A DNA stretch of 64,000 bases from NCBI RefSeq assembly GCF_037975245.1, contig NC_092571.1, positions 2,646,501-2,710,500 of the forward strand, given 5' to 3'. Positions 22,767-63,550 of this stretch are shown here, one piece after another. Each line of letters opens with the position of its first letter. Positions within the stretch are counted from its first letter, which is position 1. Position numbers and translations under genes: made by a program. The DNA comes from Apostichopus japonicus. Lineage: Eukaryota > Echinodermata > Holothuroidea > Aspidochirotida > Stichopodidae. The notes under the pieces are model-generated. The model was given only the letters and a program-made list of their open reading frames with translations. It made no database searches and had not been told where the DNA came from.

Positions 22767-22821
22767 ATGATGCGCTTGCTACTTCTCCTCGCTTTAGCCG
22801 GGTTAGCTTACACAAATAGAG
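22767..22821 (+). CDS. Gene B signal-peptide exon
   Basis: The ATG at 22767 (a second in-frame ATG follows at once) starts MMRLLLLLALAGLAYTNR, a short basic start and a Leu/Ala core typical of a secretory signal, with cleavage likely after the Ala-Tyr-Thr region. The exon has a ttttacag acceptor at 22753 with 13 nt of leader, and ends in phase 1 at a gtaaat donor. This exon has no copy in the downstream duplication. Confidence 0.75.
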
Positions 22822-25800
22822 GTAAATACAAATCTCATTTTTCAAAGGTGCAAAAGCATCCACTTTGGCCTGACAACAAGAAATGTTTTTATTCTTGGTA
22901 ATATCTCTTTTTTACATTCCGTGAACTAAGATATTCACACCGAAACTGTGCGACCATTGATGTTGTATTTGAGTTGAAAATTGATCTTACTCATTGCTAA
23001 ATAGAGAAAACAAATTTTGATCGTCTATCGCTAACACCTTATTGAGCTTTAATGGATCTTTGACGTTAGTTTGAGCAATTTCTACGTAAGGCATCTATAT
23101 AGAGGGTGACATACAAGGACAAATCTTTGAAAACACTATATTATATAAGAAATTAGGAAAGGATGTATGATATAGAAAGTGCATCTCCGTGAACTAAAGA
23201 ACATATTTCGTTTGCATATATTCTTCATAATGTTCTGCACCTTTTTTTTGGTATAAACTGTACTTTCGTGTCCTATTTAAAAGCACTTCCACATACACTA
23301 TGAGCAGTATGAATATCATGTTTTCATAAGGTAGAGCTAGAAATTGTGATAACTGTCAATACAAGTGCTTCAGAGCATGCATGGAATGGAGAGTACAGAA
23401 TATAATTACTTTGTTAGTTGCGTTAAAGAAATGTCTCAAAAAGTGGCTGCGCAAAGCACAAACATAATGCATATTCAGTACAAGCCTCAGATACTGATAC
23501 GACAAGATACGTTTATGCAACGATAAAGCGTATAAAGAAACGTTATGAAGTTTGTTAAGCATCTTGCACTCATATGGTTCTGGGATGGAAAAAATACGTG
23601 TTGACATAGAACACGACATCTTTGTGACACGTGATGATCTTAAGTAGAGTTTTCATTTCTCATCCAACATTTTGTTTGTGTTTTAATTTAGTTTCAGAAC
23701 CCAGAACGTACTCAATTACAACCCCAAATGAGTACTATTGGTTTCCAACGGCGTTACCGTCTAGACCATGTACCATCCATTTCCAGATCAAAGCCAGTCG
23801 TGATGCGGTCATTTCGTTTTCTCCAGAAAAACAAATTGTGCAAGACATCTACGAAATTGGTAAGTTCGGCGTTGACCTAATTTTATTATTTCTAGTTTGC
23901 TTACGTCTGATTCTAGGCAGGGCTGTCATAATGCCGATTAACAAATAATCTCCAAAACTGGAACTCTGGATATTGCTACTGTTTTTAAGAGAACTTGGAT
24001 AAGATGTGTAAGTTCCAAATACTAAGTAATGAAGTACTCAAAATTTGAGTTTACTGTGTCGATATTTTGTAACATAGTTTAAAACGAAATTCATCTATCC
24101 ATGTACGTCGAAAACATTTTCATTTGACTTAACACCACCGTAAAACCAAAAGAAGCTGCTCCATCTTTGCTGCCTTTATGATTCTAAGCTTATTTTGGTG
24201 GTAATTTGATAATTAAATCTAGTTATCGGAGCCGAAGGAAACTTGTTCCTCTGCATCAGGAGAGGCAATGGTGAAGCTCCTATCTTGGACCAGTTGGCTT
24301 TCGACATTTTGACTGGGTGAGTTCATTCATCGCCCGATTTAATTCTTGCATGACCGATCACTTGACGTGGTGACACAGAAGATTACAAATTTTAGTAACA
24401 AATTAATCTTCATCTCCTTCAAGAACATCGCATGGACGGTTATTGGCTTCAGTAGAGTTGTTCCATATTGTCATGATTGATTTATAGATTGGTTAAGTTC
24501 TCACTCACAACTTTGTACGCCACCCTCATAAGTTGCTCAATAGCACTTATATGTAGTTGAGTATCGTGAAGCAACAAACATGACATTTGATGAAGTCTAT
24601 AATTAACAGATTACAGTCACTCAATCAGTCAATCAATAATTCAATTATTCATTCCATCAATCAACATTTAATAAATCAAACAATCAGTCATTTAATGAAC
24701 GGTGGTTATTTTAATGCAGAAGCAGTTGTTGACGTCGTTGTTAATATCATGAACCTAAGACTAAACACTAAATTGTAACAAAGAAAATGTATCGAAATTT
24801 GTCAAACTGTGCCTATGGGAATGTTTCGACATTTCGTTTAAATGGATAAAGTTGACTGCCGTAAGCTTCAAATTGCTGTCTACTACGCGTAAACGAAGCA
24901 CCCATACAGGGTAGTATTTCAACTCATATCAGAAATTACAAGGAAACGATTCGTGGAAGTTCGTAAACGCATTCCACAATTCCCCAAAACTTCATAGAAA
25001 CTCGACGATGCGCACAAACATGAAGTCTTGAAGTGAGAAATTTATGTGTATCGTGTTCTATACAAAATGATGCCTTATCTACCTGTTGCTATCGCCAAAA
25101 CTGCAGCAACGTTCTTGTGGCTACTGAAGTGATAATATTATCCAATTTTGCAAGTTTTCGACAGAGGGTTGACGAATTTTTGACAAACGTATCACATGAG
25201 TTTAAACACTACTTTCAATGTGTGTTTCTAGTATGCGTAGTAGACAGCCGCTGGGTCCATTGACTTGCCATAAGTAACAGCATTTAAGCGTAGCCATAAC
25301 ATTTAGAACGGCAATACCGGTGCGAATTAAGAACAGGTTTGTACATCGTACCTTTCCACACTTAGAGAATGGCAAGACTTTTGGGTAGAGCTATGTAACG
25401 GAGTTGTAATTGTCGAAGGACTAGATGAGAACGCTGAAAGGGTACAACTGGCCAGATGGCAGGATGACGAACCATATACTGCTAACCAATGGTATGTCGG
25501 GTTAACTAGCATGGTAGAAGGAAGTGAATGGCGATTCGTTGATGCTGAATCATGCGGCATTGATGGCGAAGACAACGATATCGAGGAGAGAGAAGAGAGG
25601 GAGAGGGAAAATAATAATAGAAGAGACAGGCAAAGGGATGAGGCGACCAGACTACAAGACGAGAGAGAGCGAGAAGCCCGTGAGAGAAGACGTCGGCTAA
25701 GAGAAGAACGCCAGCGGAGTAAGTCAAATCATTTTCATAAATGATGCTACGTTTAGGGATACAAATTGAAAAAAATTAAGTTTAAAGTACAAGAATTGCC

Positions 25801-28800
25801 CAGCGAGTTAGTGATATTGTTATTTTTACTACATTACTAAATTTAACTGTAGTTTGGGGATTTACGGAGGGAGGGTTGCGGGGGAGGGGGGGGGTGGGGA
25901 GTGTCTCTGAGATCACGATAATTGTGAGTTTTGTGAAACTAACAAGGTTGGAAAAGAAAAGTTTATATCAATTACTTACGGATTTTCCGAGAGTGTCGAC
26001 TTTTTCTTGTGGCATGGATTGCAGACATGTAAAGGTCGAGATATATGAAAATGTTAATGCATAAAGACACTGTCATGTAAAGAATTAAATTACCACTAAG
26101 CTTAATGAGTATAAAATAGAATTACAATTTACCTAAATGTAACTTTTCAGGATAGTATAACGACATGTGCACTAGGTATTCACTTCATATTTAACTATGA
26201 TAGGTTCTTTTTATTAGAGAAAAACTTCAAACGATCGTCAGCGTGATAGCGATAACCAACCAACGTAAGTTGTCTTCATAACAGAATATCAAGTTGACAA
26301 TGCATGGTTGTGGTTCGCCGTTTCACAACTACCAGATTGAATATAACATTTTACAGATACGCTCGAATGATGGAATCGCGAAATTGCAGTTATTTAGCGT
26401 GTCTATCCTTTAGAACAACAACTTGTATCCTTGCAGTTTAATAAAATAAAAGCTTGACTGGGTCAACTGTTATCACCTTGTTGAAGTCTAAGACTGAGTA
26501 ATGTTGGTTTTTCTTGAAAACAAGTGAACTTTTTCATGTTTAAACATCTTCTCTCATGACCTGGGGTGTTAGCTCAGTGGTTGACGCCGGTGCCTTTCAA
26601 TCATAAGGTCCTCGGTTCGAGTCACTCCCAAATTAATGTTTGTCGTTCAGTTACAGAATTGTTGATAATTAGCAATTCATAATCATGGACGTTAAATATT
26701 AATGTAAGAGACTGACTTCGGTCAGCTTGCGGCTTTGATAAGCCAATGAGGCTTCTTCGCGAGTTCCTGCTTGCAGGAGGATCTAATATACATACATTCA
26801 TAAATCTGGAAAAAGAACGAGCCAATAATATCCTTTGAGTTGTTGGCGCAACCTGTGACGTAACATTGTCAGAACAACGAGTTAGTTGGTTCAGGAATTA
26901 GTGGCAAGATTTACTGTTTAACGTCTGTAATTTACCACACAATTATGGCAACACACATGTATGAAGTCATCACTGTTACCGTAGTCACACGCAGTCAGTG
27001 AAAACTGGTATCACACCAATAACATGGAAAGACTCATCGCACCCTTCATTGTGCTCCTGAAATGAGTGATCCTGAATGAGTAGATGTCTGGAGAGTCTCT
27101 AGTGATCTTTAAAGAGTGATCGATAAAATTGCAAAAGTGAAAGTAACTTTCAATCCGTTGAAATTTCTATATAGGCAGTGGATCTGGAAGTAGTTCGAAT
27201 ACCAGACCTGGATCAGGGTCTCGTAACTCAAATGGCCCAAGACGAGGTAGGTTGTCCTTTTAATAGCTAACTTGCAAAAGAAATTGGTAGCAGATACATA
27301 GTTGATGTTAGCCGTTTCACCATTATCATATTGAATTTGAAGCTCTAAATCTAGCTCTATTTGTTGCTAATGACTTAGGATGAGTGATGTTGGCTTCCCT
27401 TGTAAATAAGGTCATATTTCATGAGCCGACGTCTGGAGACCCTCCAGTGATATTTAAATAGTGGTCGATAAAACTGCCTAACTTTAGGTAACTTTCAACC
27501 CTTTTAACTTTTCATATAGGCAGTGGATCTGGAAGTAGCTCGAATACCGGACCTAGATCAGGGACTAGTGACTCAAATGGGCCAAGACGAGGTAGGTTGT
27601 CCTTATAATAGCATACCCTTGCAAAAGAATTATTGGAAGCAGATACATGGTTGATGTTAGCAGTTTTACCATTATCTTATTGGATGTGAAGCTTTAAATC
27701 TATCTGCATTGGTTGCTAATGACTTAGGATGAGTGTTGTTGGTTTCCCTTGTAAATAAGGGCATATTTCCACCAGCCGACGTCTGGAGACCCTCTAGTGA
27801 TCTTCAAATAGTGATCAATAAAACTGCCTAACTTGGAAGTTATTTTCAACCCGTTTAATTTTTTTTTAAATGGTGTTCCTTACAACTGCCTCGATTATAG
27901 TAACTTTCAACCCGTTTAACGTTTCATATAGGCAGTGGATCTGGAAGTAGTTCGAATACCGGACCTAGATCAAGGACTAGTAACTCAAATGGGCCAAGAC
28001 GAGGTAGGTTTTCTATAATAGCATACACTGGAAAATAATTTTTAGCAGATACATAGTTGATGTGAGCCGTTTAACCAAGATCAGATTGAATATTAAGCTA
28101 TAAATCTAGCTCTATTTGTTGCTAATGACTTAGGATGAGTGATGTTGGCTTCCCTTGTAAATAAGGTCATATTTCATGAGCCGACGTCTGGAGACCCGCC
28201 AGTTATCTTTAAATAGTGATCAATAAAACTACCTAACTTTAAGTAACTTTCAATCCGTTTAACTTTTCATATAGGCAGTGGATCTGGAAGTAGCTCGAAT
28301 ACCGGACCTAGATCAGGAACTAGTGTCTCAAATGGGCCAAGACGAGGTAACTTGTCCTTATAATAGCATACCCTTGCAAAAGAATTGGTAGCAGATACAT
28401 GGTTGATGTTAGCCGTTTTACCTTTATCTTATTGGATGTGAAGCTCTAAATCTAGCTCTATTTGTTGCTAATGACTTAAGATGAGTGTTGATTGTTTCCC
28501 TCGTAAATAAGGTCATATTTTTACCAGCCGACGTCTGGAGACCCTCTAGTGGTCTTTAAACAATGATCGTTAAAATTGCCTAAGTGAAAGTAATTTCAAT
28601 TCGGTTAAATTTCCACATAGGTAGTGGATCTGGAAGTAGCTCGAATACCGGACGTGGATCAGGGACTAGGAACTCAAATGGGCCAAGACGAGGTAGGTTG
28701 TTCTTATAATAGCATACCCTGTCAAAGAATTTGGTAGCAGATACATGGTTGATGTTAGCCGTTTCACCATTATCAGATTGAAGGCGAAACTCTAAATCTA

Positions 28801-31800
28801 GCTTCATCTGTTTCGAATGACTTAGGATGAGTAAATAAGGAAATGTTTCAACCGGTCTCTAGTTCATGGGTTGATGCCCGGCACCGATACCTTCTCAGGT
28901 CCCAGCTTCGGCCTCGATGGGAAGCACAGGTCACAATATAGTGACTTCGGTTCCAACGGTCCAAACAGAAGTTTTCGGAGGGAACCAACTATGATTTTAA
29001 AACAGTAGACCATCGATAGATGTATAGACCGACGTATTAAGTACTTCTGGTCCCATGTATACGATGAGGATACTACAGAGTAGGTAGAATGAATTGGCCC
29101 GAATTGGCATTCGAAATTATTCTGAAACGCCCTGGGTTCCATGAAACTGGCCGGGATCGAATACGAGAGAACATCCAAGCAAAGGTCGGCGAATGAGTGT
29201 CCGAGGGGGCATATGGAAACGTTGTTTCAATTATTATGTCGTACTTTTAGGTGGCCCTTAAGTTGAAAGGCTCAATGTGTGAATTTAATGACAGGAAATA
29301 GGCCAAAGTGTATACTCATTCATTGGGGAAAAGGCGTATGTCCGGAAGCGTTAGTGCTGGGCGCGGTCTCGGAGGGATACTTGTTAAAGTTCACCTCATT
29401 ATTGGCGCGATCAGGATATAGGTGACTACTCTTCCACTCGTCGCTTTTTCGACTCCAAAGAAAGTCTTTGGAGTAGCGGTGGCATTATCTTATACATCTC
29501 CAACACTGGTCATCCTAGAACATTTAATTTGGGTCTCTGCAAGTAGCGAAATATCATCAGTTGAAGTATATCGGCGTTACCCCCATTTATGAACCATTGA
29601 TAGTATTACCGATGCTCAACAATCTCGAAAGATAAGGAGCACACTGGAACGCACTTCAAAGAATCATTTCTCCGACGCGGGGAAATTTTTAAGGCATCTT
29701 GGCGTAATCGCCAGTTCAGTGAAAGTGATCCCACAGTGCAGAAATGACATCAAACCGTTATAGATGCCTCTCCTGTAATATTAAAATCCAGAAAATATAA
29801 GTCTACATCTGTTGATGCATCTAAAAACGTTGGACATTTATTGACACCTTCTAACCCTACACAGTTCAACCAATCCAAATTTAGAATTGAAAACAATAAC
29901 CGTATTCTAAATCCCGTCTCGTGGCACTAATATGGAGATATCTCATAACAAGATATTTCTATATTCTATAATAATTCGACCAAGAATTGATTACTTTCTA
30001 CTGGTTTTCTTTGCATATACAGGCAGTGGATCTGTAGACAGTTCAAATAGCCGACGACGTGGATCAGGTACAAGTAGATCAAATGATCGTGCAAGAAATG
30101 CCCAACCCGCGCCAAGACCAGGTAAGATTCCTTATTCTTAACACACACTCAACAGAAGTCTGCCTTCAATAAAACCATCGTTACATTCTCACATAACATA
30201 TAGGTTAAGCTGAGTAAATTTGTTATGAACTGGTTCAAATGCTAGAATGAGTCTCGTTACCTTGTCTTGCAAACTGTGGACTTTTTCGAAGTTGCAGACA
30301 TCTTTCATGATCAGGAACGAAAGAGGGCTGCAATATGCCTTTTAAGCATGTGGTTAGAAAATATAGACCTACTGAGTTTACCGTTAGAACACGTTGTTGC
30401 CTAGCACTTACTGTAGAATTATCAGTTAAACAAACTCACTGAATATAAAAACCTAATTAAATGGCGGCTTTGTGATATATGTTATTCTTGAATTGGATAC
30501 GCTAAGGAGCACCCCAGAACAGACTTTTGGTACTAGTACAACAGACTGAGCAAAAGAATGTGCGACGCTCAGTCTGACAGTATGAGAATAAGTACAAGGC
30601 TCGAACCGTGAGTGTGAGTAACAACGAGTACACAGAGGACGAGTATGAGTACATACAACTATGCTCAAATCAGAGTATGGGTATGAACTTACCACAAGAC
30701 TGCTCCGAATCATGATGCGATTTATTTCGCTCTTCTCTTACTTTTCTTTTACGTTCCTTACCCACCCCCCCCCCTCCCTCGTTAGTTTTCTCGTTCTGTC
30801 TGACTTTGATATCTCACTGGCGGAGTGTATAGCCTAGTGGTTAACGCCGGCGTCTCCCAGTCATGAGATCCCCGGTTCGATTCCCCGCCGACAGCAATGT
30901 GTGTCGTCTGGCAAGGGTGTTGTTCAATAACAACTTCCTGACATGGACGTTAAATGGATGTGTGCCGAGAGATTGGCTTCGGTCAGCTTGCGAGTCTACA
31001 AGCCTCCATGGCTTCTTTCGCGAGTTCCTGCTTCCGGGAAGATCACATATACATACATACATACACTGAATTGTCTTTGAATAATATCAATTTACACTTT
31101 TCAGATAATGGCGACAAAATTGAAAAGGACATACAGGGAAATTTCCCAGCCGAGTGGACATTTATCGAGTGGAAGCTTCGTAATCCCAGCGGTTTCAAAA
31201 TTCCGTTTTGGTTGAAGGCTGAAGGTGACGCATACATTCGACTTTCTGCTACCAATGCCGACAGCGCAACAAATTTCTACACAATAAGTAAGTATTAATC
31301 CGGTGAAGGATTTAGGGAAATTAGCAGCAAGCATATAAGGCGCTCCTCCGTCACCAATTATTTATTGATGCTTTTTTTCCACGCAAAGTGTGGATTGAGC
31401 CTGAGAGGATTCAACACCGTTTGTCGAGCTAAAAGTAAAAAAACAACTCCCTCCATACAGTTACAACTCCGTTACACGGCGTTATCGCACGCTCCGATCA
31501 CATGAAAGCAGTATACTATTACTTACGACAATTCGTTTCAAAAATCTGTCTTTCAGCATATCAATAATGATCGAGCATATATAGGTTAGTTTACAGAGAT
31601 TTCGAACAACTTCTTGAAGGGACCTTTGCTTTTGTGTAGCAGGGTAAGATGATTTGGAAGATTTTTGAAATGAATTTAACAAAAAAGTTGTAATGATACT
31701 CGTTGATGAAGTAAACATCGCTCTTTCAATGATTACAAGCTCATATAATGACAAATTGAACGAAAGAATAAAATTTGTTTTGAAAATCTTCCAATTAGCT

Positions 31801-34800
31801 TGGTTTTAATCAAATTAAATTCTGAAATACTATACCCAAATTCATATATACGCTTTCTTCCTTGATTTATTTACACTATTAGTGATTGGTTTCCGAAGTA
31901 ACAGGAACGTGTGTATCATGCGCTCCGGCAGGAACGTTGTGGATGAACCTATTCGAGGCGTGCTTGACAGAGAGTAAGTTAAAATGTTGTTTAACTTTAG
32001 TATGGGATAATGTTTAAAGGGATATTCCGGTGGCAGACACTTTAAACGTAAAAGGAAAATATTGTTAGTTAAAAACCCCATCTCAGTACCTTGATCCTAA
32101 ATCAAGATATCGTTAATTGAGAGTATCACTCAATGTAACCCTAGTTATTTCCTGGAGTAGAACACTGTAGATAATGGAAACAAATGATATTCCTGATTTA
32201 TGTAATTTATTTTTTTGGAGAACTTCCTAGTAATGATTCCATTGCCGTTGAGCAGAAACGCTCTGCATTGTCTGAAATGCCGCAACTCCATATATGACCT
32301 CAAATATGTATTCCCCCCCCCTTGTTTTTTAAACAGTGATTTCGTTTATTTCGAACTCGAGTGGGATGGCAGAACTATCAAACTATGGAAGGAAGGACAA
32401 TTACTCGTCGAATACACGGATCGTGATCCATATAGCGGACTGGATTGGATAGGCTTTACAAGTTACGACTCAGTCAACCCATCCAATCGAATTCCAAGCA
32501 GGTGGAAATTTGAGAGAAACTCCTTCGGTAATGCATCATCATATGCTATTAAATCTATACACACGTCCACAATAATATCACGAAATTAGACCGCTTAAAT
32601 TAGATTGTCAAAATATTATTAATACTAACCTCTAAATATGAAAAGGTCAACCATGTTAAAACTTTAAAATATCCTGCCTGTCACAATTATGTTACCATGT
32701 GTTTCTCTTTGTCCCCTTTATGCGAGATCAGATTCTCCAATGGTTGTCTATAGAGCTGCAGTAATATAATGTCAAACTTTGGCGAAATCCGGTGTTCTCA
32801 TCAATGACGATAAACTGTCACAAACAGATGGGCATTTAACCCACTCCCACTCTCCCTCTTGAACTGATTTTCCGAAGTGTATTTTAAGAAGAATGTTGTA
32901 TTTTTCGACACGTGATATTTGAGTCAGAGCCGTCGTCGGGAAACATTGCAGTATGTCGGATAAGTCATTTGTCGAGAAAAATTCTACCAGGGTGCCGGGC
33001 ACATAAGGTTGTGTCGCGGCGATCATCCATCTGCACGGTTCGTTGGGCCAATCATAGCTTGTTATTTTTTAAGAACCTTAGTATCACCCATGCAGTCATG
33101 GTGACTCCACTGTACACCACGCAACTGGAAGCATGATCTGTCACCTTAGCCCATCAAGATTTAAATGTCATTAGGCTAAATTTTCCTAAATTTGTGACAC
33201 TACCAATATTTTGTCATATGGTTAAGAAGCAACCACGGCTAACTATTTCGGAGCAACCAACCGGTCTAACAACATTATTTCAATGCTTAGTTACAAGATT
33301 ATGCTATTACGCGTGCCTATAACGTTTGGTCCAGGTCCCTCTAAGTTGAAACTTAAAAGTCGTGTATTTGTCTTTACTTTTCATCGTCCCAAGAAAAGTG
33401 AAACATTGTGAGTAACGAGAGTATTGCTAATTGGAGAAGAAGAAGAACATTGTGTAAACCCAGTTGAACCTAGCTCATACAAAGCATATTCCTGTTGGAA
33501 CCCAGTAAGACCCAGTTAAACACAGTTAAAAACAAGTTATACATAGTAGGCCCTATTAGAACCTAGTTGATTTTTTAACTGGGTTCTACTGGAATTTCTA
33601 CCAGGGATGATGAGTGTTGTTGGTTTCCCTCGTAAATAAGGTCATATTTTCATGAGCCGACGTCTGGAGACCCTCCATTGATCTTTAAATAGAGATCCAT
33701 AAAACTGCGTAACTTAAAGTTACTTTCAACCCGCTTAACTTTTTAAATAGTGTTCTTTAAAACTGCCTAAATTAAAGTAACTTTCAACCCGTTTAACGTT
33801 TCATACAGGCAGTGGATCTGGAAGTAGTTCGAATACCGGACCTAGATCAGGGACTAGTAACTCAAATGGGCCAAGACGAGGTAACTTTTCCTTATAATAG
33901 CATACAATGGAAAATAATTTGTAGCAGATACATGGTTGATGTGAGCCGTTTCACCATTATCAGATTGAATGTGAAACATATAGCTCCATTTGTTGCTAAT
34001 GAATTAGGATAAGTGTTGGTGGTTTCCCTCGTAAATAAGGGCATATTGTCATTAGCCGAGGTCTGGAGACCCTTTAGTGATCTTTAAATAGTGATCAAAA
34101 AAACTGCGTAGTTTGAAGTTACTTTCAACCCGTTTAAATTAAATAGTGTTCCTTACAACTGCCTAGATTAAAGTAACTTTCAATCCATTTAAATTTCCAT
34201 ATAGGCAGTGGATCTGGAAGTAATTCGAATACCGGACCTGGATCAGGGACTAGTAACTCAAATGGGCCAAGACGAGGTAGGTTGTCCTTATAGTAACATA
34301 CCCTGCAAAAGAAATTGGTAGCAGATACATGGTTGATGTTAGCTGTTTCACCATTATCAGATTGAATTTGAAGCTCTAAATTTAGCTCTATTTGTTGCTA
34401 ATGACTTAGGATGAGTGTTGTTGGTTTCCCTTGTAAATAATGGCATATTTCATGAGCCGACGTCTGGAGACCCTCTATTGATCTTTAAATAGTGATAGAT
34501 AAAACTACCTAACTTAAAGTTACTTTCAACCCGTTTAACTTTTTAAATAGTGTTCTTTAATACTGCCTTAATAAAAGTAACTTTCAATCCGTTTAACTGT
34601 TCATATAGGCAGTGGATCTGGAAGTAGCTCGAATACCGGACCTAGATCAGGGTCTCGTAACTCAAATGGGCCAAGACGAGGTAGGTTGTCCTTATAGTAA
34701 CATACCCTGCAAAAGAAATTGGTAGCAGATACATGGTTGATGTTAGCCGTTTCACCATTATCAGATTGAATTTGAAGCTCTAAATTTAGCTCTATTTGTT

Positions 34801-37800
34801 GCTAATGACTTAGGATGAGTGTTGTTGGTTTCCCTTGTAAATAATGGCATATTTCATGAGCCGACGTCTGGAGACCCTCTATTGATCTTTAAATAGTGAT
34901 AGATAAAACTACCTAACTTAAAGTTACTTTCAACCCGTTTAACTTTTTAAATAGTGTTCTTTAATACTGCCTTAATAAAAGTAACTTTCAATCCGTTTAA
35001 CTGTTCATATAGGCAGTGGATCTGGAAGTAGCTCGAATACCGGACCTAGATCAGGGTCTCGTAACTCAAATGGGCCAAGACGAGGTAGGTTTTCCTTATA
35101 ATAGCATACCCTCAAGCAAAAGGATTTGTAGCAGATACATGGTTGATGTTAGCCGTTTCACCATTATCAGATTGAATGTGAAGCTCTAAATCTAGCTCTA
35201 TTTGTTGCTTATGACTTAGGATGAGTGTTGTTGGTTTCCTTGTAAATAAGGGCATTATTTCACCAGCCGACGTCTGAAGACCCTCTAGTGATCTTTAAAT
35301 AGTGATCAATAAAACTGCCTAACTTTAAGTAACTTTCAATCCGTTTAACTTTTCATACAGGCAGTGGATCTGGAAGTAGCTCGAATACCGGACCTAGATC
35401 AGGAACTAGTGTCTCAAATGGGCCAAGACGAGGTAACTTGTCCTTATAATAGAATACCCTTGCAAAAGAATTGGTAGCAGATACATGGTTGATGTTAGCC
35501 GTTTTACCTTTATCTTATTGGATGTGAAGCTCTAAATCTAGCTCTATTTGTTGCTAATGACTTAAGATGAGTGTTGATTGTTTCCCTCGTAAATAAGGTC
35601 ATATTTTTACCAGCCGACGTCTGGAGACCCTCTAGTGGTCTTTAAACAATGATCGTTAAAATTGCCTAAGTGAAAGTAAATTCAATTCGGTTAAATTTCC
35701 ACATAGGTAGTGGATCTGGAAGTAGCTCGAATACCGGACGTGGATCAGGGACTAGGAACTCAAATGGGCCAAGACGAGGTAACTTGTCCTTATAATAGCA
35801 TACCCTTGCAAAAGAATTGGTAGCAGATACATGGTTGATGTTAGCCGTTGTACCTTTATCTTATTGGATGTGAAGCTCTAGATCTAGCTCTATTTGTTGC
35901 TAATGACTTAAGATGAGTGTTGATTGTTTCCCTCGTAAATAAGGTCATATTTTTACCAGCCGACGTCTGGAGACCCTCTAGTGGTCTTTAAACAATGATC
36001 GTTAAAATTGCCTAAGTGAAAGTAATTTCAATTCGGTTAAATTTCCACATAGGTAGTGGATCTGGAAGTAGCTCGAATACCGGACGTGGATCAGGGACTA
36101 GGAACTCAAATGGGCCAAGACGAGGTAGGTTGTTCTTATAATAGCATACCCTGCCAAAGAATTTGGTAGCAGATACATGGTTGATGTTAGCCGTTTCACC
36201 ATTATCAGATTGAAGGCGAAACTCTAAATCTAGCTTCATCTGTTTCGAATGACTTAGGATGAGTAAATAAGGAAATGTTTCAATCGGTCTCTAGTTCATG
36301 GGTTGATGCCCGGCACCGATATCTTCTCAGGTCCCAGCTTCGGCCTCGATGGGAAGCACAGATCACAATATAGTGACTTCGGTTCCAACGGTCCAAACAG
36401 AAGTTTTCGGAGGGAACCAACTATGATTTTAAAACAGTAGACCATCGATAGATGTATAGACCGACGTATTAAGTACTTCTGGTCCCATGTATACGATGAG
36501 GATACTACAGAGTAGGTAGAATGAATTGGCTCGAATTGGCATTCGAAATTATTCTGAAACGTCCTGGGTTCCATGAAACTGGCCGGGATCGAATACGAGA
36601 GAACATCCAAGCAAAGGTCGGCGAATGAGTGTCCGAGGGTGGCATATGGAAACGTTGTTTCAATTATTATGTCGTACTTTTAGGTGGCCCTTAAGTTGAA
36701 AGGCTCAATGTGTGATTTCAATGACAGGAAATAGGCCAAAGTGTATACTCATTCATTGGGGAAAAGACGTATGTCCGGAAGCGCTATAGTGCTGGGCGCG
36801 GTCTCGGAGGAATACTTGTTAAAGTTCACCTCATCATTTGCGCGATCAGGATATAGGTGACTACTCTTCCACTCGTCGCTTTTTCGACTCCAAAGAAAGT
36901 TTTGGAGTAGCGGCATTATCTTATACATCTCCAACACTGGTCATCCTAGAACATTTAATTCGGGTCTCTGCAAGTAGCGAAATATCATCAGTTGAAGTAT
37001 ATCGGCGTTCCCCCCCCCCCCCCCCCATTTATGAACCATTGATAGTATTACCGATGCTCAACATTCTCGAAAGATAAGGAGCACACTGGAACGCACTTCA
37101 AAGAATCATTTCTCCGACGCGGGGAAATTTTTAAGGCATCTTGGCGTAATCGCCAGTTCAGTGAAAGTGATCCCACAGTGCAGAAATGACATCAAACCGT
37201 TATAGATGCCTCTCCTGTAATGTTAAAATCCAGAAAATATAAGTCTACATCTGTTGATGCATCTAAAAACGTTGGGCATTTATTGACACCTTCTAACCCT
37301 ACACAGTTCAACCAATCCAAATTTAGAATTGAAAACAATAAACGTATTCTAAATCCCGTCTCGTGGCACTAATATGGTGATATCTCATAACAAGATATTT
37401 CTATATTCTATAATAATTCGACCAAGAATTGATTACTTTCTACTGGTTTTCTTTGCATATACAGGCAGTGGATCTGTAGACAGTTCAAATAGCCGACGAC
37501 GTGGATCAGGTACAAGTAGATCAAATGATCGTGCAAGAAATGCCCAACCCGCGCCAAGACCAGGTAAGATTCCTTATTCTTAACACACACTCAACAGAAG
37601 TCTGCCTTCAATAAAACCATCGTTACATTCTTACATAACATATAGGTTAAGCTGAGTAAATTTGTTATGAAGTGGTTCAAATGCTAGAATGACTTTTCTT
37701 ACCTTGTCTTGCAAACTGTGGACTTTTTCGAGGTTGCAGACGTCTTTAATGATCAGTAACGAAACAGGGCTGTAATATGCCTTTTAAACGTGTGGTTACA

Positions 37801-40800
37801 AAATATAGACCTACTGAGTTTACCCTTAGAACACGTTTTTGCCTACTAGCACTTACTGTAGAATTATCAGTTAAACAAACTCACTGAATATAAAAACCTA
37901 ATTAAATGACGGCTTCGTGAATCATGTTATTCTTGAATTGGATACGCTAAGGAGCATCCCAGAACAGACTTTTGGTACTAGTACAACAGACTGAGCAAAA
38001 GAATATGCGACGCTTCGGACAGTATGAGAATAAGTAGAAGGCTCGAACCGTGAGTGTGAGTAACAACGAGTACTCAGAGGACGAGTATAAGTACATACAA
38101 GTATGCTCAAATCAGAGTATGGGTATGAACTTACCACAAGTCTGCTCCGAATCATGATGCGATTTATTTCGCTCTTCTCTTACTTTTCTTTAACGTTCCT
38201 CCCCCCCCCCCCCTCCCTCGTTAGTTTTCTCGTTCTGTCTGACTTTGATATCTCACTGAATTGTCTTTGAATAATATCAATTTACACTTTTCAGATAATG
38301 GCGACATAATTGAAAAGGACATACAGGGAAATTTCCCAGCCGAGTGGACATTTATCGAGTGGAAGCTTCGTAATCCCAGCGGTTTCAAAATTCCGTTTTG
38401 GTTGAAGGCTGAAGGTGACGCATACATTCGACTTTCTGCTACCAATGCCGACAGCGCAACAAATTTCTACACAATAAGTAAGTATTAATCCGGTGAAGGA
38501 TTTAGGGAAATTAGCAGCAAGCATATAAGGCGCTCCTCCGTCACCAATTGCTTATTGATGCTTTTTTTCCACGCAAAGTGTGGATTGAGCCTGAGAGGAT
38601 TCAACTCCGTTTCTCGAGCTAAAAGTATAAAAAAAAAAAAACTCCCTCCATACAGTTACAACTCCGTTACACGGCGTTACCGCACGCTCCGATCACATGA
38701 AAGCAGTATACTATTACTTACGACAATTCGTTTCAAAAATCTGTCTTTCAGCATATCAATAATGATCGAGCATATATAGGTTAGTTTACAGAGATTTCGA
38801 ACAACTTCTTGAAGGGACCTTTGCTTTTGTGTAGCAGGGTAAGATGATTTGGAAGATTTTTGAAATGAATTTAACAAAAAAGTTGTAATGATACTCGTTG
38901 ATGAAGTAAACATCGCTCTTTCAATGATTACAAGCTCATATAATGACAAATTGAACGAAAGAATAAAATTTGTTTTGAAAATCTTCCAATTGGCTTGGTT
39001 TTAATCAAATTAAATTCTGAAATACTATACCCAAATTCATATATACGCTTTCTTCCTTGATTTATTTACACTATTAGTGATTGGTTTCCGAAGTAACAGG
39101 AACGTGTGTATCATGCGATCCGGCAGAAACGTTGTGGATGAACCTATTCGAGGCGTGCTTGACAGAGAGTAAGTTAAAATGTTGTTTAACTTTAGTATGG
39201 GATAATGTTTAAAGGGATATTCCGGTGGCAGACACTTTAAACGTAAAAGAAAAATATTGTTAGTTAAAAACCCCATCTCAGTACCTTGATCGTAAATCAA
39301 GATATCGTTCATTGAGAGTAGCACTCAATGTAACCCTAGTTATTTCCTGGAGTAGAACACTGTAGATAGACATTCCTGATGTATGTAATTTATATTTTTG
39401 GAGAACTTCCTAGTAAGGATTCCATTGTCGTTGAGCAGAAACGCTCTGCATTGTCTGAAATGCCGCAACTCCATATATGACCTCAAATATGTACTCCCCC
39501 CCCCTTGTTTTTTAAACAGTGATTTCGTTTATTTCGAACTCGAGTGGGATGGCAGAACTATCAAACTATGGAAGGAAGGACAATTACTCGTCGAATACAC
39601 GGATCGTGATCCATATAGCGGACTGGATTGGATAGGCTTTACAAGTTACGACTCAGTCAACCCATCCAATCGAATTCCAAGCAGGTGGAAATTTGAGAGA
39701 AACTCCTTCGGTAATGCATCATCATTTGCTATTAAATCTACACACACGTCCACAATAATATCACGAAATTAGACCGCTTAAATTAGATTGTCAAAATATT
39801 ATTAATACTAACCTCTAAATATGAAAAGGTCAACCATGTTAAAACTTAAAAATATCCTGCCTGTCACAATTATGTTACCATGTGTTTCTCTTTGTCCCCT
39901 TTATGCGAGATCAGATTCTCCAATGGTTGTCTATAAAGCTGCAGTAATATAATGTCAAACTTTGGCGAAATCCGGTGTTCTCATCAATGACGAAAATACG
40001 GTCACAAACAGATGAGCATTTAACCCCCTCTCACTCTCCCTCTTGAACTGATTTTCCGAAGTGTATTTTTAGAAGAATGTTGTATTTTTCGACAAGTTCA
40101 AAGATATAAGGGAAGTGATATTTGAGTCAGAGCCGTCGTCGGGAAACATTGCGGTTTGTCGGATAAGTCATGCCAATTTGTCGAGAAAAATTCTACCAGG
40201 GTGCCGGGCACATAAGGTTGTGTCGCGGCGATCATCCATCTGCACGGTTCGTTGGGCCAATCATAGCTTGTTATTTTTTAAAAACCTTAGTATCACCCAT
40301 GCAGTCATGGTGACTCCTCTGTACACCACGCAACTGGAAGCATGATCTGTCACCTTAGCCCATCAAGATTTAAATGTCATTAGGCTAAATTTTCCTAAAT
40401 TTGTGACACTACCAATATTTTGTCATATGGTTAAGAAGCAACCACGGCTAACTATTTCGGTGCAGCCAACCGGTCTAATAACATTATTTCAATGCTTAGT
40501 TAGAAGATTATGCTATTACGCGTGCCTATTACGTTTGGTACAGGTCCCTCTAAGTTGAAACTTACAAGTCGTGTATTTGTCTTTACTTTTCATCGTCCCA
40601 AGAAAAGTGAAACATTGTGAGTAACGAGAGTATTGCTAATTGGAGAAGAAGAAGAATAGGGACACGTTCCCATCATACATTGTCCTCACTTTTGAAAGTG
40701 GTCTATGTCTTGGGCTAAGATAAATCTGGAATCAAGAAAAGACAAGGACATTCTAAAAAGTGAGGCCACTAAAAGAAACGAAAAGGTCAAAACAGCTCAA

Positions 40801-43800
40801 GTTCCTTCAAAAAATAAAGATAAATGTTCTTAAAAGCATGATATAACAAATGAATTAGATGAGTGATTGCATGAGATTCGAAAGGGCATCTTAGTTTAGT
40901 TTATCGCTAACACGTTATTGGGGTTTAAGGGATCTTTGACGTTATCTTGATCAATTTGTACAGTAGGCTTCTATATAGAGGATAACATACAACGGCAAAT
41001 CTTTGAAAGCACTCTATTATCACAGTAAGAAATAAATGTAAGAAAGTATCATATAGAAAGTGTATCTCCGTGAACTAAAGAACATTTACTTCCTTCGCAT
41101 ATATTCTTCATAATGTTCTTCACATTTTCTTTTATAAACTGTACTTTCGTGTCCTATTTAAAACCACTTTCACATACACTATGAGCAGAATGAATATCAT
41201 GTTTTCATAAGGTAGAGCTAGAAATTGTGATAACTGTCAATACAAGTGCTTCAGAGCAGGCATGGAATGGAGAGTACAGAATAGAGTCACTTTGTTAGTA
41301 GCATTAAATAAATGTCTCAAGATACGTCTATGCAACGATAAAGCGTATTAGAAAACGTTATGAAGTTTGTTAAGCATCTAGCACTCAAATGGTTCTGGAA
41401 TGAAATAAAAAAACGTGTTGACATAGAACACGACATCTTTGTGACACGTGATGATCTTAAGTAGAGTTTTCATTTCTCAACCAACATTTTGTTTGTGTTT
41501 TATTTTAGTTTCACTATCCAGAACGTACTCAATTGCAACCCCAAATGAGTACTATTGGTTTCCAACGGCGTTACCGTCTAGACCATGTACCATCCATTTC
41601 CAGATCAAAGCCAGTCGTGATGCGGTCATTTCGTTTTCTCCAGAAAAACAAATTGTGCAAGACATCTACGAAATTGGTAAGTTCGACGTTGACCTAATTT
41701 TATTATTTCTTTTTTGCTTACGTCTGATTCTAGACAGGGCTGTCATAATGCTGATTAACAAATAATCTCCTAAACTGGAACTCTGGATATTGCTACTTTT
41801 TTTTAAGAGAACTTGGATAAGATGTGTAAGTTCCAAATACTAAGTAAGGAAGTACTCAAATTTCGAGTTTCCTGTGTCGATATTTTATAACATAGTTTAA
41901 AACGAAATTCATCTATCCATGTACGTCGAAAAACGTTTTTCATTTGACTTAACACCACCGTAAAACGAAAAGAAGCTGCTCCATCTTTCCTGCCATTTAT
42001 GATTCCATGCTTATTTTGGTGGTAATTTGATGATTAAATCTAGTTTTCGGAGCCGAAGGAAACTTGTTCCTCTGCATCAGGAGAGGAAATGGTGTAGCTC
42101 CTATCTTGGACCAGTTGGCTTTCGACATTTTGACTGGGTGAGTTCATTCATCGCCCCATTTAATTCTTGCATGACCAATCACTTGACGTGGTGACACAGA
42201 AGGTTTCAAATTTTAGTAACAAATTAACCTTCATCTCCTTCAAGAACCTCGCATGGACGGTTATTGGCTTCAGTAGAGTTGTTCCATATTGTCATGATTG
42301 ATTGATTGATTTATGGATTGGTTAAGTTCTCACTCACAACTTTGTACGCCACCCTCATAAGTTGCTCAATAGCACTTACATGTAGTTGAGTATCGTAGAG
42401 CAACAAATATGACATTTGATGGAGTCTATAATTAACAGAATTACAGTCACTCAATTAGTCAATCAATAATTCAATTATTCATTCCATCATTTAATGAACG
42501 GTGGTTATTTTAATGCAGAAGCAGTTGTTGACGTCGTTGTTAATATCATGAACCTAAGACTAAACACTAAATTGCAACGAAGAAAAAGTATCGAAATTTG
42601 TCAAACTGTGCCTATGGAAATGTTCGACATTTCGTTTAAATGGATAAAGTTGACTGCTGTAAACTTAAACTTGCTGTCTACTACGCATAAACGAAACATC
42701 CAGTCAGGGTATTATTTCAAATCATATCAGAAATCACATGGGAACGATTCGTGGAAGTTCGTAAATGCATTCCGCAATTCCCAAAACTCTTCATAGAAAC
42801 TCGACGATGCGCACAAACATGAAGTCTTGAAGTGAGGAATTTTATGTGTATCGTGTTCTATACAAAGTGATGCCTTATCGACCTGTCGCTATCGCCAAAA
42901 CTGCAGCAACTTTCTTGTTGCTACTAAAGTGATAATATTATCCCATTATGCAAGTTTTCGACGGTGAGTTGACGATTTTTTGACAAACGTATCACATGAG
43001 TGGAAACACCACTTTGATTTTTTGTTTCTAGTATGCGTATTAGACAGCCACTGGGCCCATTGACTTGCCATATGTAACAGCGTTTAAGCATAACCATAAC
43101 ATTTAAAACTTCAAAACAGGTGCGAATTAAGAACAGGTTTTTAAATCGTACCTTTCCACACTTAGAGAATGGCAAGACTTTTGGGTAGAGCTATGTAACG
43201 GAGTTGTAATTGTCGAAGGACTAGATGAGAACGCTGAAAGGGTACAACTGGCCAGATGGGAGGATGACGATCCATATACTGCTGACCAATGGTTTGTCGG
43301 GGTAACTAGCATGGTAGAAGGAAGTGAATGGCGAGTTGTTGATGCTGAATCATGCGGCATTGATGGCGAAGACAACGATATCGAGGAGAGACAAGAGAGG
43401 GAGAGGGAAAATAATAATAGAAGATTAAGGCAAAGGGATGAGGCGACCAGACTACAAGCCGAGAGACAGCAAGAAGCCCGTGAGAGAAGACAGCGGCTAA
43501 GAGAAGAACGCCAGCGGAGTAAGTCAAATCATTTTCATAAATGATGCTACGTTTAGGGATACAAATTGAAAAAATTTAAGTTTAAAGTACAAGAATTGCC
43601 CAGCGAGTTAGAGAGCAAGAAGCCCGTGAGAGAAGACAGCGGCTAAGAGGAGAACGCCAACGAAGTAAGTCAAATCATTTTATAAATGCCGCTACGTTTA
43701 GTAATACAAATTGAACAAATTTAAGTTTAAATTACAAGCATTGCTCAGCGAGTTAGAGATATTGTTATTTTTACTGAATTTATAAATTTAACTGTAGTTC

Positions 43801-46800
43801 TAGGGAATTACGGAGAGAGGGTTGTGGAGGGAGGGGAGGGGGGGGGCTCTCAGATCACGATATTGGTGAGTTTTGTGAAATTAACAAGGTTGGAAACGAA
43901 AAGTTGATATCAATTACTTACGGATTTTCCGAGAGTGTCGACTTTTTCTTCTGGCATGGATTGCAGACATGAAAAGGTGAATGTGAAGTTCTAAATCTAG
44001 CTCCATTTGTTGATAATGAAATAGGATGAGTGTTGTTGGTGTTCCTTGTAAATAAGGGCATATTTTCATTAGCCGATGTCGGGGGACCCTCTAGTGATCT
44101 TTAAATAGTGATCAATAAAACTGCCTAAATTAAAGTAACTTTCAATCCGTTTAACTTTTCATGTAGGCAGTGGATCTGGAAGTAGTTCGAATACCGGACG
44201 TGGATCAGGGTCTAGTAACTCAAATGGGCGAAGACGAGGTAGGTTGTCCTTATAATAGCATACACTGCAAAAGAATTGGTAGCAGATACAAAGGTGATGT
44301 TAGCCGTTTCACCAATATCAGATTGAATGTGAAGTTCTAAATCTAGCTCCATTTGTTGATAATGACATAGGATGAGTGTTGTTGGTGTTCCTTGTAAATA
44401 AGGGCATATTTTCATAAGCCGACGTCTGAAGACCCTCTAGTGATCTTTAAATAGTGATCAATAAAACTGCCTAAATTAAAGTTACTTTTAAACTGTTTTA
44501 CTTTTTTAATAGTGATCCTTAAAACTGCGTAAATTAAAGTAACTTTCAACCTTTAACGTTTCATATAGGCAGTGGATCTGGAAGTAGTTCGAATTCCGGA
44601 CCTGGATCAGGGACTAGTAACTCAAATGGGCGAAGACGAGGTAGGTTGTCCTTATAATAGCATACACTGCAAAAGAATTGGTAGCAGATACATGGTTGAT
44701 GTTAGCCGTTTCACCATTATCAGATTGAGTGTGAAACTCTTAATCCGGCTACAGCTGTTGTGACTGGCTGAGGACGATTGTTGTTGATTTAATCAGCAGA
44801 TACCTGGATCGTCTCTATTGATCTTTAAATAGTGTTCTTTGAAACTGCCTAAATTAAAGTAACTTTCAATCCGTTTAACTTTTCATATAGGCAGTGGATC
44901 TGGAAGTAGCTCGAATACCGGACCTGGATCAGAGACTATTGACTCAAATGGGCCAGGACGAGGTAAGTTGTTTTTAAAACACAATATCCTGCAAAAGAAT
45001 TTCGTAGCAGAAACATGGTTGATGTTAGTCCATTGTTGATGATTTTCTTTGCAAATAATGTAGAGCTTCGAGTAGTTATTTGTTTTCGTAACTCTTTTAA
45101 CGTAGAGTTAAAAAGGTATGGATCATTACAAACTATATGTCGGCCATCTCTTCCACTCTCAAAGTCATTCAAGAGGTTTCGTGGAATGGCAACCATTTCG
45201 CCGAATCCAAATTTGGCGTAGAACATTAACGATGTCCTAGGGAAACTAACATAATGAACTTGTAGAGCAATGAATCAGTCGTATCTCTTTCTCATTACCA
45301 TTAGGAATGTGATAAATTTGGAATGTTTGCCGAGTCGTCAGTGCTCTCTGTATTAAGAATTTCATTGGATACAATTCTCTCTGCGGGTAACTGAGTTAAA
45401 TGTTATATAGGAAAATTAAGAACAAACACATCTCAGCTCAATTGCCGTGATGGCATTTTGCTGTTGCCAGATGTATTACAAAATATGGCAAATATCATAA
45501 AATTTGAATAATGTATATCACCCCAAGAAAAAATGTTAAACTACTCTGATAAAAATCGCATCCTGTCAACTAAGTTATCGAAATGGTGACCTTTAAAATG
45601 GCTAAATCATGCCCCCCCCCCTCCCCCTTACAAAATCTTTCTCAAGGAATCATTTACTACATTATCTGCTAAATAATAGATACGATGGAAGATTGAATGA
45701 TTAATTTGAAATCCAAGGAAAGAACTAAAACTAATAACAGTAATATCATTCCAGTCTCGTGGCCCTAATATCTGATAACAAATTATTATTTTCTATGATA
45801 ATTTGACCACCAAATTGTTTGTTACTTTGCCTCGCAAACTGGTAGACTTTTCTTCTAACTATATGTTTTCGTTCGTGACCGTAGACATTAAATGGCCATG
45901 GCCACGATGCACTAATTAACTTAGAAAATAGCGGCACGTTTTTTTACTTCAAGGGTAATATTTCAGTTACAAACAATTGAGAGTCACGTTAACACAGGAG
46001 TACATTAAGTAAACAATGTTGCCTACAACTTATTATATTATTACGAGATTGATTAAATCCATCAATTTACAGAATGAACTATAAAGACAGCTTAATGCTC
46101 AGCGAAAATCACCATAACATGATTTGTTTTTCGATACACCCATGAGTACTCTGAATCCGAATTGTGATAAGCGTACAATTTGAGTTCAAATACAAAATGT
46201 TTAATTTCCCTGGATTGTTTGAGTATAGAGTCCGTGTACAATGCTCTAAGCGAAGTTATGCCCATTCAATCTTGATGTCGTATCTACGAATACAAATCAA
46301 TCGGGATGAGTACAAAAGTGTAGGCAAATATTCTTAGACTAATAAATTGATTACGAGTGCGGATCAGTCATGCAGTCACTTACTTCGCTATGTTATTATT
46401 ATTTTATGCTTGTATACATAAACTTGGTAATTTTATGATTTGAAAAAACTCTATTTCAACCAACTTCGCTTAACATAGTAAGTATGAATAGTTATACAAA
46501 AATGTGAGACAAGGTGTACCTTTAAGCAGCTTTAAACCTAAGGAAATGATTAATGTAAATGGGAAAAAAATGGGTTAAGGGGCATCCAAAGAAGATATAA
46601 CTAGCTTATGTAAGGTCCCCATAACATTCTTGGTGAATTCTCTTAAATCTCTGAATACTTTCAGATAATGGTGACAAAATCGAAAAGGAAATCCGGGGGA
46701 ATTCCCCAGCCGAGTGGACATTTATCGAAGGGAAGCTTCTTAATCCTAGCCGTTTCAAAATTACGTTTTGGTTGAAGGCTGAAGGTGATGCACACATTCG

Positions 46801-52754: not shown

Positions 52755-54176
52755 TTACCCTGGAAACACCTTATTACGCCACGACTTCACGTCCTTTAGC
52801 ATTCTTATACTGTCACTCCGGAATCTTGGATTTGCAAAACTGTATATAACTGGATTAATAGCAGGGGTCGTATAATAGATGTGTTGTAACACTGTTAGAA
52901 ACGCGAAGGCGTGCGGATTTTCGAAACGTAGATCATTCCACCACTCGCTTTCTGTGTTAGTTATCAGCCACATGATGCATCTTGCTGTCCAGGTTCCAAC
53001 GAACACAACCGTGGCTAGCAATAACATCCTCCCCGTTCTTCCGGAGGATCGCAACGGATTAGCACCAGCTCCTGATACCGAGAGTCTTCTGTTGTTTGCG
53101 GACGATCCAGGTCTCAAAACCACGTCTTCTCGACTCGTGACCTTTGTCTCTAGTATCGCTGTCATAAGGTCTTCATATTGTTTGTCAACATGTCCAATTT
53201 CTGTCGTGGCAAATTTAGATATATTTCTAATCTCCGTCGTCATCGGAGACGACGGATTAACGTTCGCATCAATTTTCGTTTTCTTTCCCACTGTCATTTC
53301 GGTTCGCCCAACTTCTACTTTTGCACTGCCCTCAGACCTACGTTCAATTTTCACTCCAAGGAAAGTCACCGATGCGCGTCTACTACAAGCGACGGGCTTG
53401 CTCCCATTGCTTTCTCGATGTTTTCCCCTTGTATCTTTGTCTTTGGGTATTACACGCACCGCCTCACCTACATGGGTAACTGCTGTCGTCTGTCCCCTCT
53501 CACTATCAATAGCAGTGCTCTCACTGGGACGTACAAATATCGCGGAACCAGCCCGGTTTTGAAATCTCTTTCTAACCTCTAAGTAAACTAGAGTATAAAG
53601 TACCAACGCCGTTACCATTAAGAAAATAAAGCAAGCGAACGCCAGAGTGAGCGGTATGTACAGAGCCAACCCGTCTTTAGTAATCTGGCATTTGTTATCT
53701 TCGATCCCATACAGGAATGCCACCGGTATACTAAACATGTTTGAAATCCCTAGGCCTATTAGCGAGCACAGAAGAGCTTTCTTTATCGTCATCGGAAAAT
53801 GCGGACGACAAATTTGAAAATATCTGTCCGCGGCGATAGTGGTTGTCATGAATGCTGAGAAAAATTCACTCCAAGATCCAAACACTTGGTATCCTTGACA
53901 TTTGTATGGCGTTTCGTATGAGCTTTCGTATAGCCAATGGACTATTCTAGCTATTGAGAATATGGTGATGAACATATCCAAAATGGCCATAGTAAGAATA
54001 AACACATGAGTGCTAGTTTTCTTCGTCTTGGAGTAATACACCGCAAACACCAGCACGTTACCCGGAACTCCAATGATCAAAACAATGGTCAAAATGACAA
54101 TCATCCAGCTCTGATAAGGTTCCAAATGTCCTTCTAAAGACAGTATTGGATATGGAAGTTTTGTGGCATCCGCCAT
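52755..54176 (-). CDS. Class A (rhodopsin-like) G-protein-coupled receptor, single exon
   Basis: One uninterrupted frame of 473 residues with seven hydrophobic segments at about 24-47, 57-80, 98-120, 134-157, 172-198, 383-405 and 422-447. Signature residues are present: Gly-Asn at 39-40, Asp67 in helix 2, the pair Cys93/Cys163 for the extracellular disulfide, Asp-Arg-Tyr at 117-119 and Asn-Pro-x-x-Tyr at 441-445. The third intracellular loop is very long (about 180 residues), hydrophilic, and has two Arg-Arg-x-Ser sites near 266 and 363 that suit PKA. Helix 6 has Trp396 but lacks the usual proline two residues later. The ligand is unknown; lack of introns is common in expanded invertebrate GPCR families. 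The ATG at 54176 gives a short N-terminus with no signal peptide, as usual for this class. It is convergent with gene B. Confidence 0.92.
   Translation of the reverse strand: MADATKLPYPILSLEGHLEPYQSWMIVILTIVLIIGVPGNVLVFAVYYSKTKKTSTHVFILTMAILDMFITIFSIARIVHWLYESSYETPYKCQGYQVFGSWSEFFSAFMTTTIAADRYFQICRPHFPMTIKKALLCSLIGLGISNMFSIPVAFLYGIEDNKCQITKDGLALYIPLTLAFACFIFLMVTALVLYTLVYLEVRKRFQNRAGSAIFVRPSESTAIDSERGQTTAVTHVGEAVRVIPKDKDTRGKHRESNGSKPVACSRRASVTFLGVKIERRSEGSAKVEVGRTEMTVGKKTKIDANVNPSSPMTTEIRNISKFATTEIGHVDKQYEDLMTAILETKVTSREDVVLRPGSSANNRRLSVSGAGANPLRSSGRTGRMLLLATVVFVGTWTARCIMWLITNTESEWWNDLRFENPHAFAFLTVLQHIYYTTPAINPVIYSFANPRFRSDSIRMLKDVKSWRNKVFPG

Positions 54177-63351: not shown

Positions 63352-63550
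<199 letters not shown>

Follow-up and report, generated by a model that had tools for sequence, protein, structure and literature searches.

A FAMeT-domain gene of the sea cucumber Apostichopus japonicus with arrays of 72-nt repeat exons between its domains

The stretch of DNA analysed here (the window) covers 64,000 nucleotides (nt) of the sea cucumber Apostichopus japonicus (assembly GCF_037975245.1, contig NC_092571.1, positions 2,646,501 to 2,710,500), and positions below are counted from its first letter. It carries a gene, modelled with 34 exons between 22767 and 49655 on the plus strand, whose product is, judging from the sequence, probably a secreted multi-domain protein with five FAMeT domains (Pfam family PF12248). 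Between these domains lie three arrays of Gly/Ser repeat exons of 72 nt. Arrays 1 and 2 are each followed by a longer, divergent member of this exon family (99 nt), which had been overlooked by the initial annotation.

27175–28692, plus strand: array 1, five 72-nt exons starting at 27175, 27520, 27932, 28275 and 28621 (r1.1–r1.5)
33809–36124, plus strand: array 2, seven 72-nt exons starting at 33809, 34205, 34609, 35013, 35361, 35707 and 36053 (r2.1–r2.7)
44167–44962, plus strand: array 3, three 72-nt exons starting at 44167, 44569 and 44891 (r3.1–r3.3)
30023–30121, plus strand: L1, 99-nt divergent exon of the repeat family, phase 1-1 (nhmmer E 4.6e-11)
37465–37563, plus strand: L2, 99-nt divergent exon of the repeat family (nhmmer E 4.6e-11)

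The initial annotation had described fifteen 72-nt exons in arrays of five, seven and three, with conserved splice borders and phase 1-1, and had taken the repeat unit to be the exon plus its intron. This description was borne out, as all fifteen exons were found in place at the exact length, each with AG upstream and GT downstream and each in phase 1-1 in the spliced gene model, and the start-to-start distance within arrays was 322–412 bp. The further claim that every repeat but one ends in Pro-Arg-Arg-Gly was correct for most copies only, since the exceptions number three: twelve copies end in Pro-Arg-Arg, two (r3.1 and r3.2) in Arg-Arg-Arg and one (r3.3) in Pro-Gly-Arg. A motif scan for Pro-Arg-Arg or Pro-Gly-Arg detects 13 of the 15 array exons because two copies end in another way. 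An nhmmer profile built from the fifteen copies with short flanks was run over the window plus 30 kb on its upstream side and 10 kb on its downstream side; it returned the fifteen array exons, both 99-nt exons (identical to each other in all 32 compared codons) and one further match with an E value of 2.4, which was taken as chance. The repeat was found nowhere else in the animal's own genome, as the 14 DNA and 10 protein matches all fall in this locus, with a DNA search that skips very common words.

The 72-nt pieces look coding because they are less variable than the introns and free of indels. In the 12 copies that have an in-array intron behind them, variation affected 16 of the 72 columns of the exon alignment and 116 of the 237 intron columns that lack gaps (Fisher p 7e-5). 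Variable third positions in the exons were 4 out of 23 (p 0.004), and 14 gap intervals were found in the intron alignment and none in the exon alignment. As these copies are relatives of one another, the p values overstate independence. Mean identity was 93% among the array exons and 85% among the 12 in-array introns (range 77–99.7%, with two groups at 99–100%). The arrays could instead be satellite DNA within an intron, open in frame by chance and not exonic, and the repeat unit is indeed a tandem DNA repeat. However, the conservation is specific to the exon, indels are absent from it, the borders are intact in 15 out of 15 copies, the phases match, and a related gene downstream has a Gly/Ser exon in the same position, which makes this explanation very improbable.

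The conservation of third positions suggests a constraint on DNA or RNA (splicing) besides protein, or an exchange centred on the exon. The amino acids of the repeat showed no sign of being tightly held, with proportions of non-synonymous and synonymous differences (pN and pS) of 0.076 and 0.053 among the 15 array exons (105 pairs, without a formal test). Variable exon sites were concentrated at nt 27–52 (13 of 19, p 0.001, for a stretch chosen post hoc). Diversifying selection was considered, on the basis of pN exceeding pS in the array exons and of a similar excess between domains A and A' (below), and is not claimed, as the counts are small and carry no formal test. In the intron alignment, a 58-column gap splits longer from shorter introns, and four 58-bp tandem duplications are listed in or before array 2 introns (33684–35002).

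Outside the arrays, the gene model consists of the following parts.

22767–22821, plus strand: first coding exon, signal-peptide-like MMRLLLLLALAGLAYTNR, ending in phase 1 (signal judged from the sequence by eye)
23692–25718, plus strand: FAMeT domain A and a Glu/Arg-rich linker, exons 23692–23859, 24223–24316 and 25366–25718 (PF12248 E 2.4e-18)
31105–32527, plus strand: FAMeT domain B, exons 31105–31287, 31883–31973 and 32337–32527 (PF12248 E 2e-14)
38295–39710, plus strand: FAMeT domain B', exons 38295–38477, 39078–39168 and 39520–39710 (assigned by likeness to B)
41509–43518, plus strand: FAMeT domain A' and a Glu/Arg linker, exons 41509–41676, 42044–42137 and 43166–43518 (PF12248 E 2.3e-15)
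46665–48565, plus strand: FAMeT domain B'', exons 46665–46847, 47698–47788 and 48375–48565 (PF12248 E 1.8e-17)
49498–49655, plus strand: last exon in the gene model, Gly followed by an Arg/Ser-rich tail and the stop codon

Spliced together, the 34 exons give one open frame of 1371 amino acids with its sole stop at the end, and every junction phase fits. The order is a signal-like start, A, a Glu/Arg stretch, five repeats with L1, B, seven repeats with L2, B', A', a second Glu/Arg stretch, three repeats, B'' and the Arg/Ser tail. The locus had been claimed to be a single gene, which agrees with the unbroken frame and with the lack of a signal-like start exon in the intron ahead of A' (39711–41508). 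Two or three tandem genes could produce the same modular layout (A-array-B, array-B' and A'-array-B''), and a scan for signal-like start exons returned two weak candidates in 44963–46664, ahead of B''; the antisense rate of 2.8 per 10 kb predicts about 0.5 for that interval. Nevertheless, one frame runs throughout to a single terminal stop, and the same scan recovered the exon at 22767 and found no other in the remaining four regions it covered (39711–41508 and three long introns); we therefore give tandem genes little credence. The gene might also encode a multi-copy peptide precursor cleaved at the Arg-Arg closing each repeat, as the dibasic pair closes 14 out of 15 repeats downstream of the signal-like start, but the repeats sit between FAMeT domains, are of simple Gly/Ser sequence and in r3.3 lack the pair, so a precursor of this kind seems highly improbable.

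The claim of FAMeT domains was confirmed for the four of the five that were scanned (A, B, A' and B''), which scored 53.9–66.7 bits against the curated PF12248 cut-off of 24.2. Over 152 compared codons, B' and B are separated by a single amino-acid change, with non-synonymous (dN) and synonymous (dS) divergence of 0.003 and 0.021, while B and B'' are further apart (dN 0.13, dS 0.42). A' is a second copy of A, with 92.6% identity over 2.3 kb, a dN of 0.044 and a dS of 0.022 (20.25 and 2.75 changes, small counts without a formal test). The initial annotation had suggested a lectin-like fold for these domains; a sequence search of the PDB for relatives of FAMeT with a solved structure gave no meaningful match (best E values 0.6 and 1), so this fold is conjectural. 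At 43464–43759 a tandem duplication (period about 145 bp) affects the 3' end of the linker exon of A' together with its donor. The second copy, at 43614–43664, might act as an additional exon of 51 nt in phase 1-1, albeit one with a poor acceptor; the corresponding site after A carries no second copy of the linker-exon 3' end.

The history of arrays 1 and 2 can be read from their flanks. The two arrays are not independent, as the ends of both lie inside the two copies of a module of about 7 kb.

28275–33447, plus strand: module copy 1, with r1.4, r1.5, L1 and B (from flank comparisons; BLAST places its start at 27865, one unit out of register)
35361–40656, plus strand: module copy 2, with r2.5–r2.7, L2 and B' (from BLAST and flank comparisons)

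Between the last array exon and the module end, in a comparison by bins of about 250 bp, the identity of the copies reached 97% or more in 16 out of 19 bins and 93.6–96.8% in the other three, and the bin beyond the module end drops to 71%. A tRNA-like insertion, SINE-like (short interspersed element) by eye and with CACTG at both ends, lies in module copy 1 (30820–31063) and is absent from the corresponding site near 38258 in copy 2.

In eleven pairwise comparisons of unit flanks, with pairs picked from the identity matrix, three copies (r2.3, r2.5 and r2.6) had differing nearest relatives on their left and right sides. The unit r2.6 (35707) is chimaeric: its exon is the same as that of r1.5, with 4 differences from r1.5 over the 400 nt upstream, and over 270 nt downstream it has only 2 differences from r1.4, which places the switch between exon nt 53 and intron position +3. 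The unit r2.3 (34609) is likewise chimaeric, with a left side and exon resembling r2.4, a right side resembling r2.2 and a switch between exon nt 49 and intron position +7. Two of the exchanges therefore fell at the 3' end of the exon. For r2.5 (35361), the exon is the same as in r1.4 and the first 340 nt or so downstream carry 2 differences from it, against 50 over the 400 nt upstream, which marks r2.5 as the left edge of the module duplication, with the switch within or just upstream of the exon. It follows from these comparisons that array 2 gained one r1.5-type exon relative to array 1, or that array 1 lost one. The earlier claim that units can be gained without a frameshift is thus recorded in the sequence itself, as two chimaeric units and the module duplication.

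Such close copies could also be an assembly error, in which the other haplotype was placed in tandem and created the end of array 2, L2 and B'. The identity in 16 of 19 bins is consistent with this, as are the dS between B and B', a level possible between alleles in an outbred marine animal, and the insertion found in one module copy only. On the other hand, both copies fit a single frame with A' after B', and the introns of r2.1–r2.4 match those of array 1 at no more than 90%, so that array 2 is not merely a second array 1. We regard an assembly error as quite improbable; even in that case, exon number would not be the same in the two alleles.

A related FAMeT gene lies downstream on the minus strand of the same contig (C11), from 63046 to beyond the window end, and shares the A-linker-B order. 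Its coordinates run on past the window end.

70618–70445, 70176–70083 and 69573–69152, minus strand: exons A1, A2 and A3 of the neighbour gene model
67468–66719, minus strand: Gly/Ser exon of 750 nt in the neighbour gene model
65522–65337 and 64384–64288, minus strand: exons B1 and B2 of the neighbour gene model
about 63222–63046, minus strand: B3, a B-type FAMeT exon (the other modelled exons lie past the window end)

The phases of the six modelled exons match those of the present gene, given an assumed entry in phase 1, and both domains match PF12248 (with the B piece joined by hand). The linkers of the neighbour are minisatellites within exons, of Val-Asp-Pro type in A3 and of twelve 57-bp units in the 750-nt exon; a separate exon with ten 54-bp units is closed by a stop and might serve as an alternative terminal exon. 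The linkers of the two genes also differ in net charge. In the present gene it is +22 over 153 residues (array 1 and L1), +29 over 201 (array 2 and L2), +6 over 72 (array 3) and +12 over 52 in the tail, compared with -22 over 73 for the Val-Asp-Pro part, -29 over 250 for the Gly/Ser exon and -27 over 209 for the alternative terminal exon in the neighbour. One linker position has therefore been lengthened in two ways, by exon arrays and by intra-exon minisatellites, with opposite charge.

Other features were observed around the two genes. In the neighbour, the stretch from the Gly/Ser exon to B1 contains a telomere-like array of TTAGGG type (L020, about 1918–2161, past the window end), and between B2 and B3 there is a run of 68 ATG trinucleotides (63354–63557). 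A rhodopsin-type G-protein-coupled receptor in one open frame lies between both FAMeT genes on the minus strand (52755–54182, 7tm_1 E 1.4e-25). More FAMeT-like exons are found upstream on the same strand (C11, about 2624900–2649700, in the upstream flank and the start of the window). A Thr/Pro-rich minisatellite in one long open frame (5455–6072), surrounded by further FAMeT-like exons, may represent one more kind of linker within this gene cluster. Broken COX1 pieces on the 31-kb contig C29, besides the mitochondrial contig C35, are assembly debris or a nuclear copy. Contig C35 (16.1 kb) bears a COX1 gene with in-frame TGA, which under genetic code 9 aligns over its full length with mammalian COX1. 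Of its 11 AAA codons, 10 fall at sites where the best PDB match (7o37 chain a) has Asn, and the remaining one is residue 2; AAA read as Asn accords with the echinoderm and flatworm code. The genes for tRNA-Phe and tRNA-Glu are spaced about 0.8 kb apart, with further tRNAs behind them, and these features were read as those of an echinoderm.

The initial annotation had proposed that length variants arise through splicing, that is, a gene which diversifies its isoforms by regulated skipping of cassette exons. Symmetry is shared by the 15 repeat exons and the pair of 99-nt exons, and the frame would survive whichever of them were skipped; in insects, alternative splicing gives FAMeT genes either one PF12248 domain or two (PMC10015273), and the neighbour gene has its predicted alternative terminal exon with a stop. 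Four of the 15 array donors are also weak (GTAACT), pairing with U1 at -6.6 kcal/mol, and some skipping at these donors is possible. However, as a set the array donors are no weaker than the others: median U1 pairing was -10.4 kcal/mol for the 15 array donors and -7.2 kcal/mol for the 18 other donors (Mann-Whitney p 0.024). Donor weakness, tried as an indicator of regulated skipping, therefore gave it no support, and regulated splicing is unsupported. As the copies are on average 93% identical, skipping would chiefly alter length. We consider regulated isoform diversification rather unlikely.

The arrays had further been called an undescribed diversification system, which is too strong, as repeat units delimited by introns have been described in spidroin genes (PMC9779670). 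The units of Argiope MaSp2 and flagelliform spidroin genes are bounded by near-identical iterated introns (PMC9779670; PMC3522626), with a mean identity of 97.6% within the MaSp2 gene (PMC9779670) and per-gene means of 94.3–99.7% in Argiope. As in those genes, the protein repeat unit here is an exon-intron unit, and secretion is predicted. Unlike in spidroin genes, strong homogenisation of the introns was not found (in-array introns 85%, exons 93%), and the units are just 72 nt and placed between FAMeT domains. With respect to spidroin terminal domains, Pfam scans of five pieces of the gene, with the tail, B' and arrays 2 and 3 outside their scope, returned PF12248 or nothing.

Among echinoderms, six sea star footprint proteins (Sfp1, Sfp3, Sfp4a, Sfp5, Sfp7 and Sfp8) carry FAMeT domains, whose role there is unknown according to the authors, and in both Sfp7 and Sfp8 a pair of these domains is combined with predicted disorder (PMC9382459). 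The present gene resembles these two as an echinoderm gene with multiple FAMeT domains, its secretion and disorder being predicted from the sequence. Sfp7 also has EGF-like and hyalin domains and Sfp8 WAP and antistasin domains, and the portions of that paper drawn on here contain no mention of a repeat-exon array (PMC9382459). The insect FAMeT genes share PF12248, but it is whole domains that vary, DUF3421 follows, and a Gly/Ser linker array is not mentioned in the corresponding portions of the source; the methyltransferase activity implied by the name has never been reliably demonstrated in vitro (PMC10015273). A search of the open-licence literature, with subscription papers outside its scope, found no paper that mentions farnesoic acid together with holothurians, and among the papers listed by broader searches PMC9382459 alone contained a FAMeT term. 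Mutually exclusive clusters of the Dscam type contain alternative exons that clearly differ in sequence, with one exon of a cluster used per transcript. Unlike these, the array exons are not clearly different, with a mean identity of 93%. The design with one repeat unit per exon is therefore already known from spidroins, while the echinoderm FAMeT setting, the exons less diverged than their introns and the inverted neighbour with acidic intra-exon minisatellite linkers are new here.

The explanation we favour, and consider reasonably probable, is a gene for a secreted multi-domain FAMeT protein whose linkers grew by in-frame duplication of exon plus intron, with constitutive splicing and a structural role. 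Folded FAMeT domains would be joined by long, flexible, positively charged linkers of Gly, Ser, Asn and Arg, with each 24-residue unit encoded by one symmetric phase 1-1 exon, and most repeat exons would most likely be spliced in constitutively. The linkers would lengthen by duplication of exon-plus-intron units, through unequal crossing-over or some comparable slippage. The exchanges would fall at the exon, where the unit is best conserved, and a larger duplication of the same kind would have copied a FAMeT-B module too. The products would remain in frame because units and domain cassettes are all phase 1-1. The protein may be an adhesive, mucus or matrix protein, in which copy number would tune linker length and charge. 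A structural secreted protein is favoured because sea star Sfp proteins have FAMeT domains and the insect FAMeT name reflects no shown activity (PMC9382459; PMC10015273), and the Gly/Ser linkers at the same place in the A-linker-B order of the neighbour gene also speak for this explanation.

Of this explanation, the exon anatomy, the reading frame and the chimaeric units are seen directly, whereas splicing, secretion, the structural role and crossing-over as the mechanism are inferred. Several points weigh against it. The splice sites outside the arrays were picked by the analyst to fit, so the continuous frame is evidence and not independent proof. The dS of 0.022 between A and A' stands against 0.42 between B and B'', and these unequal ages call for further exchanges. 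None of the arrays contains the right end of the module duplication (33447/40656), and a single array-to-array crossover therefore cannot account for the whole layout. The four weak donors described above belong here as well, and the likely secretion and structural role are drawn from reading the sequence and from analogy.

A bolder possibility, tentative and on balance unlikely, is a length-tuning locus with a partner. The 72-nt exon would serve both as coding unit and as recombination handle, individuals would differ in linker length, and the basic and acidic proteins of the two genes would co-condense (complex coacervation) into glue or mucus. Condensation of opposite charges is a known principle in worm glues. 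Against such a coacervate, the A domains of the gene are themselves acidic (-15 over 155 residues each) and the whole protein has a net charge of only +32 in 1354 residues.

Two related genes on one chromosome have thus lengthened the same linker, one by exon arrays and the other by intra-exon minisatellites, and the chimaeric units reveal the sites of exchange. This contrast between neighbouring genes, together with the chimaeric units, makes the growth of repetitive structural proteins by iterated introns, without frameshift, testable outside spiders. The opposite charges of the linkers offer a concrete and cheap test of a two-component animal secretion.

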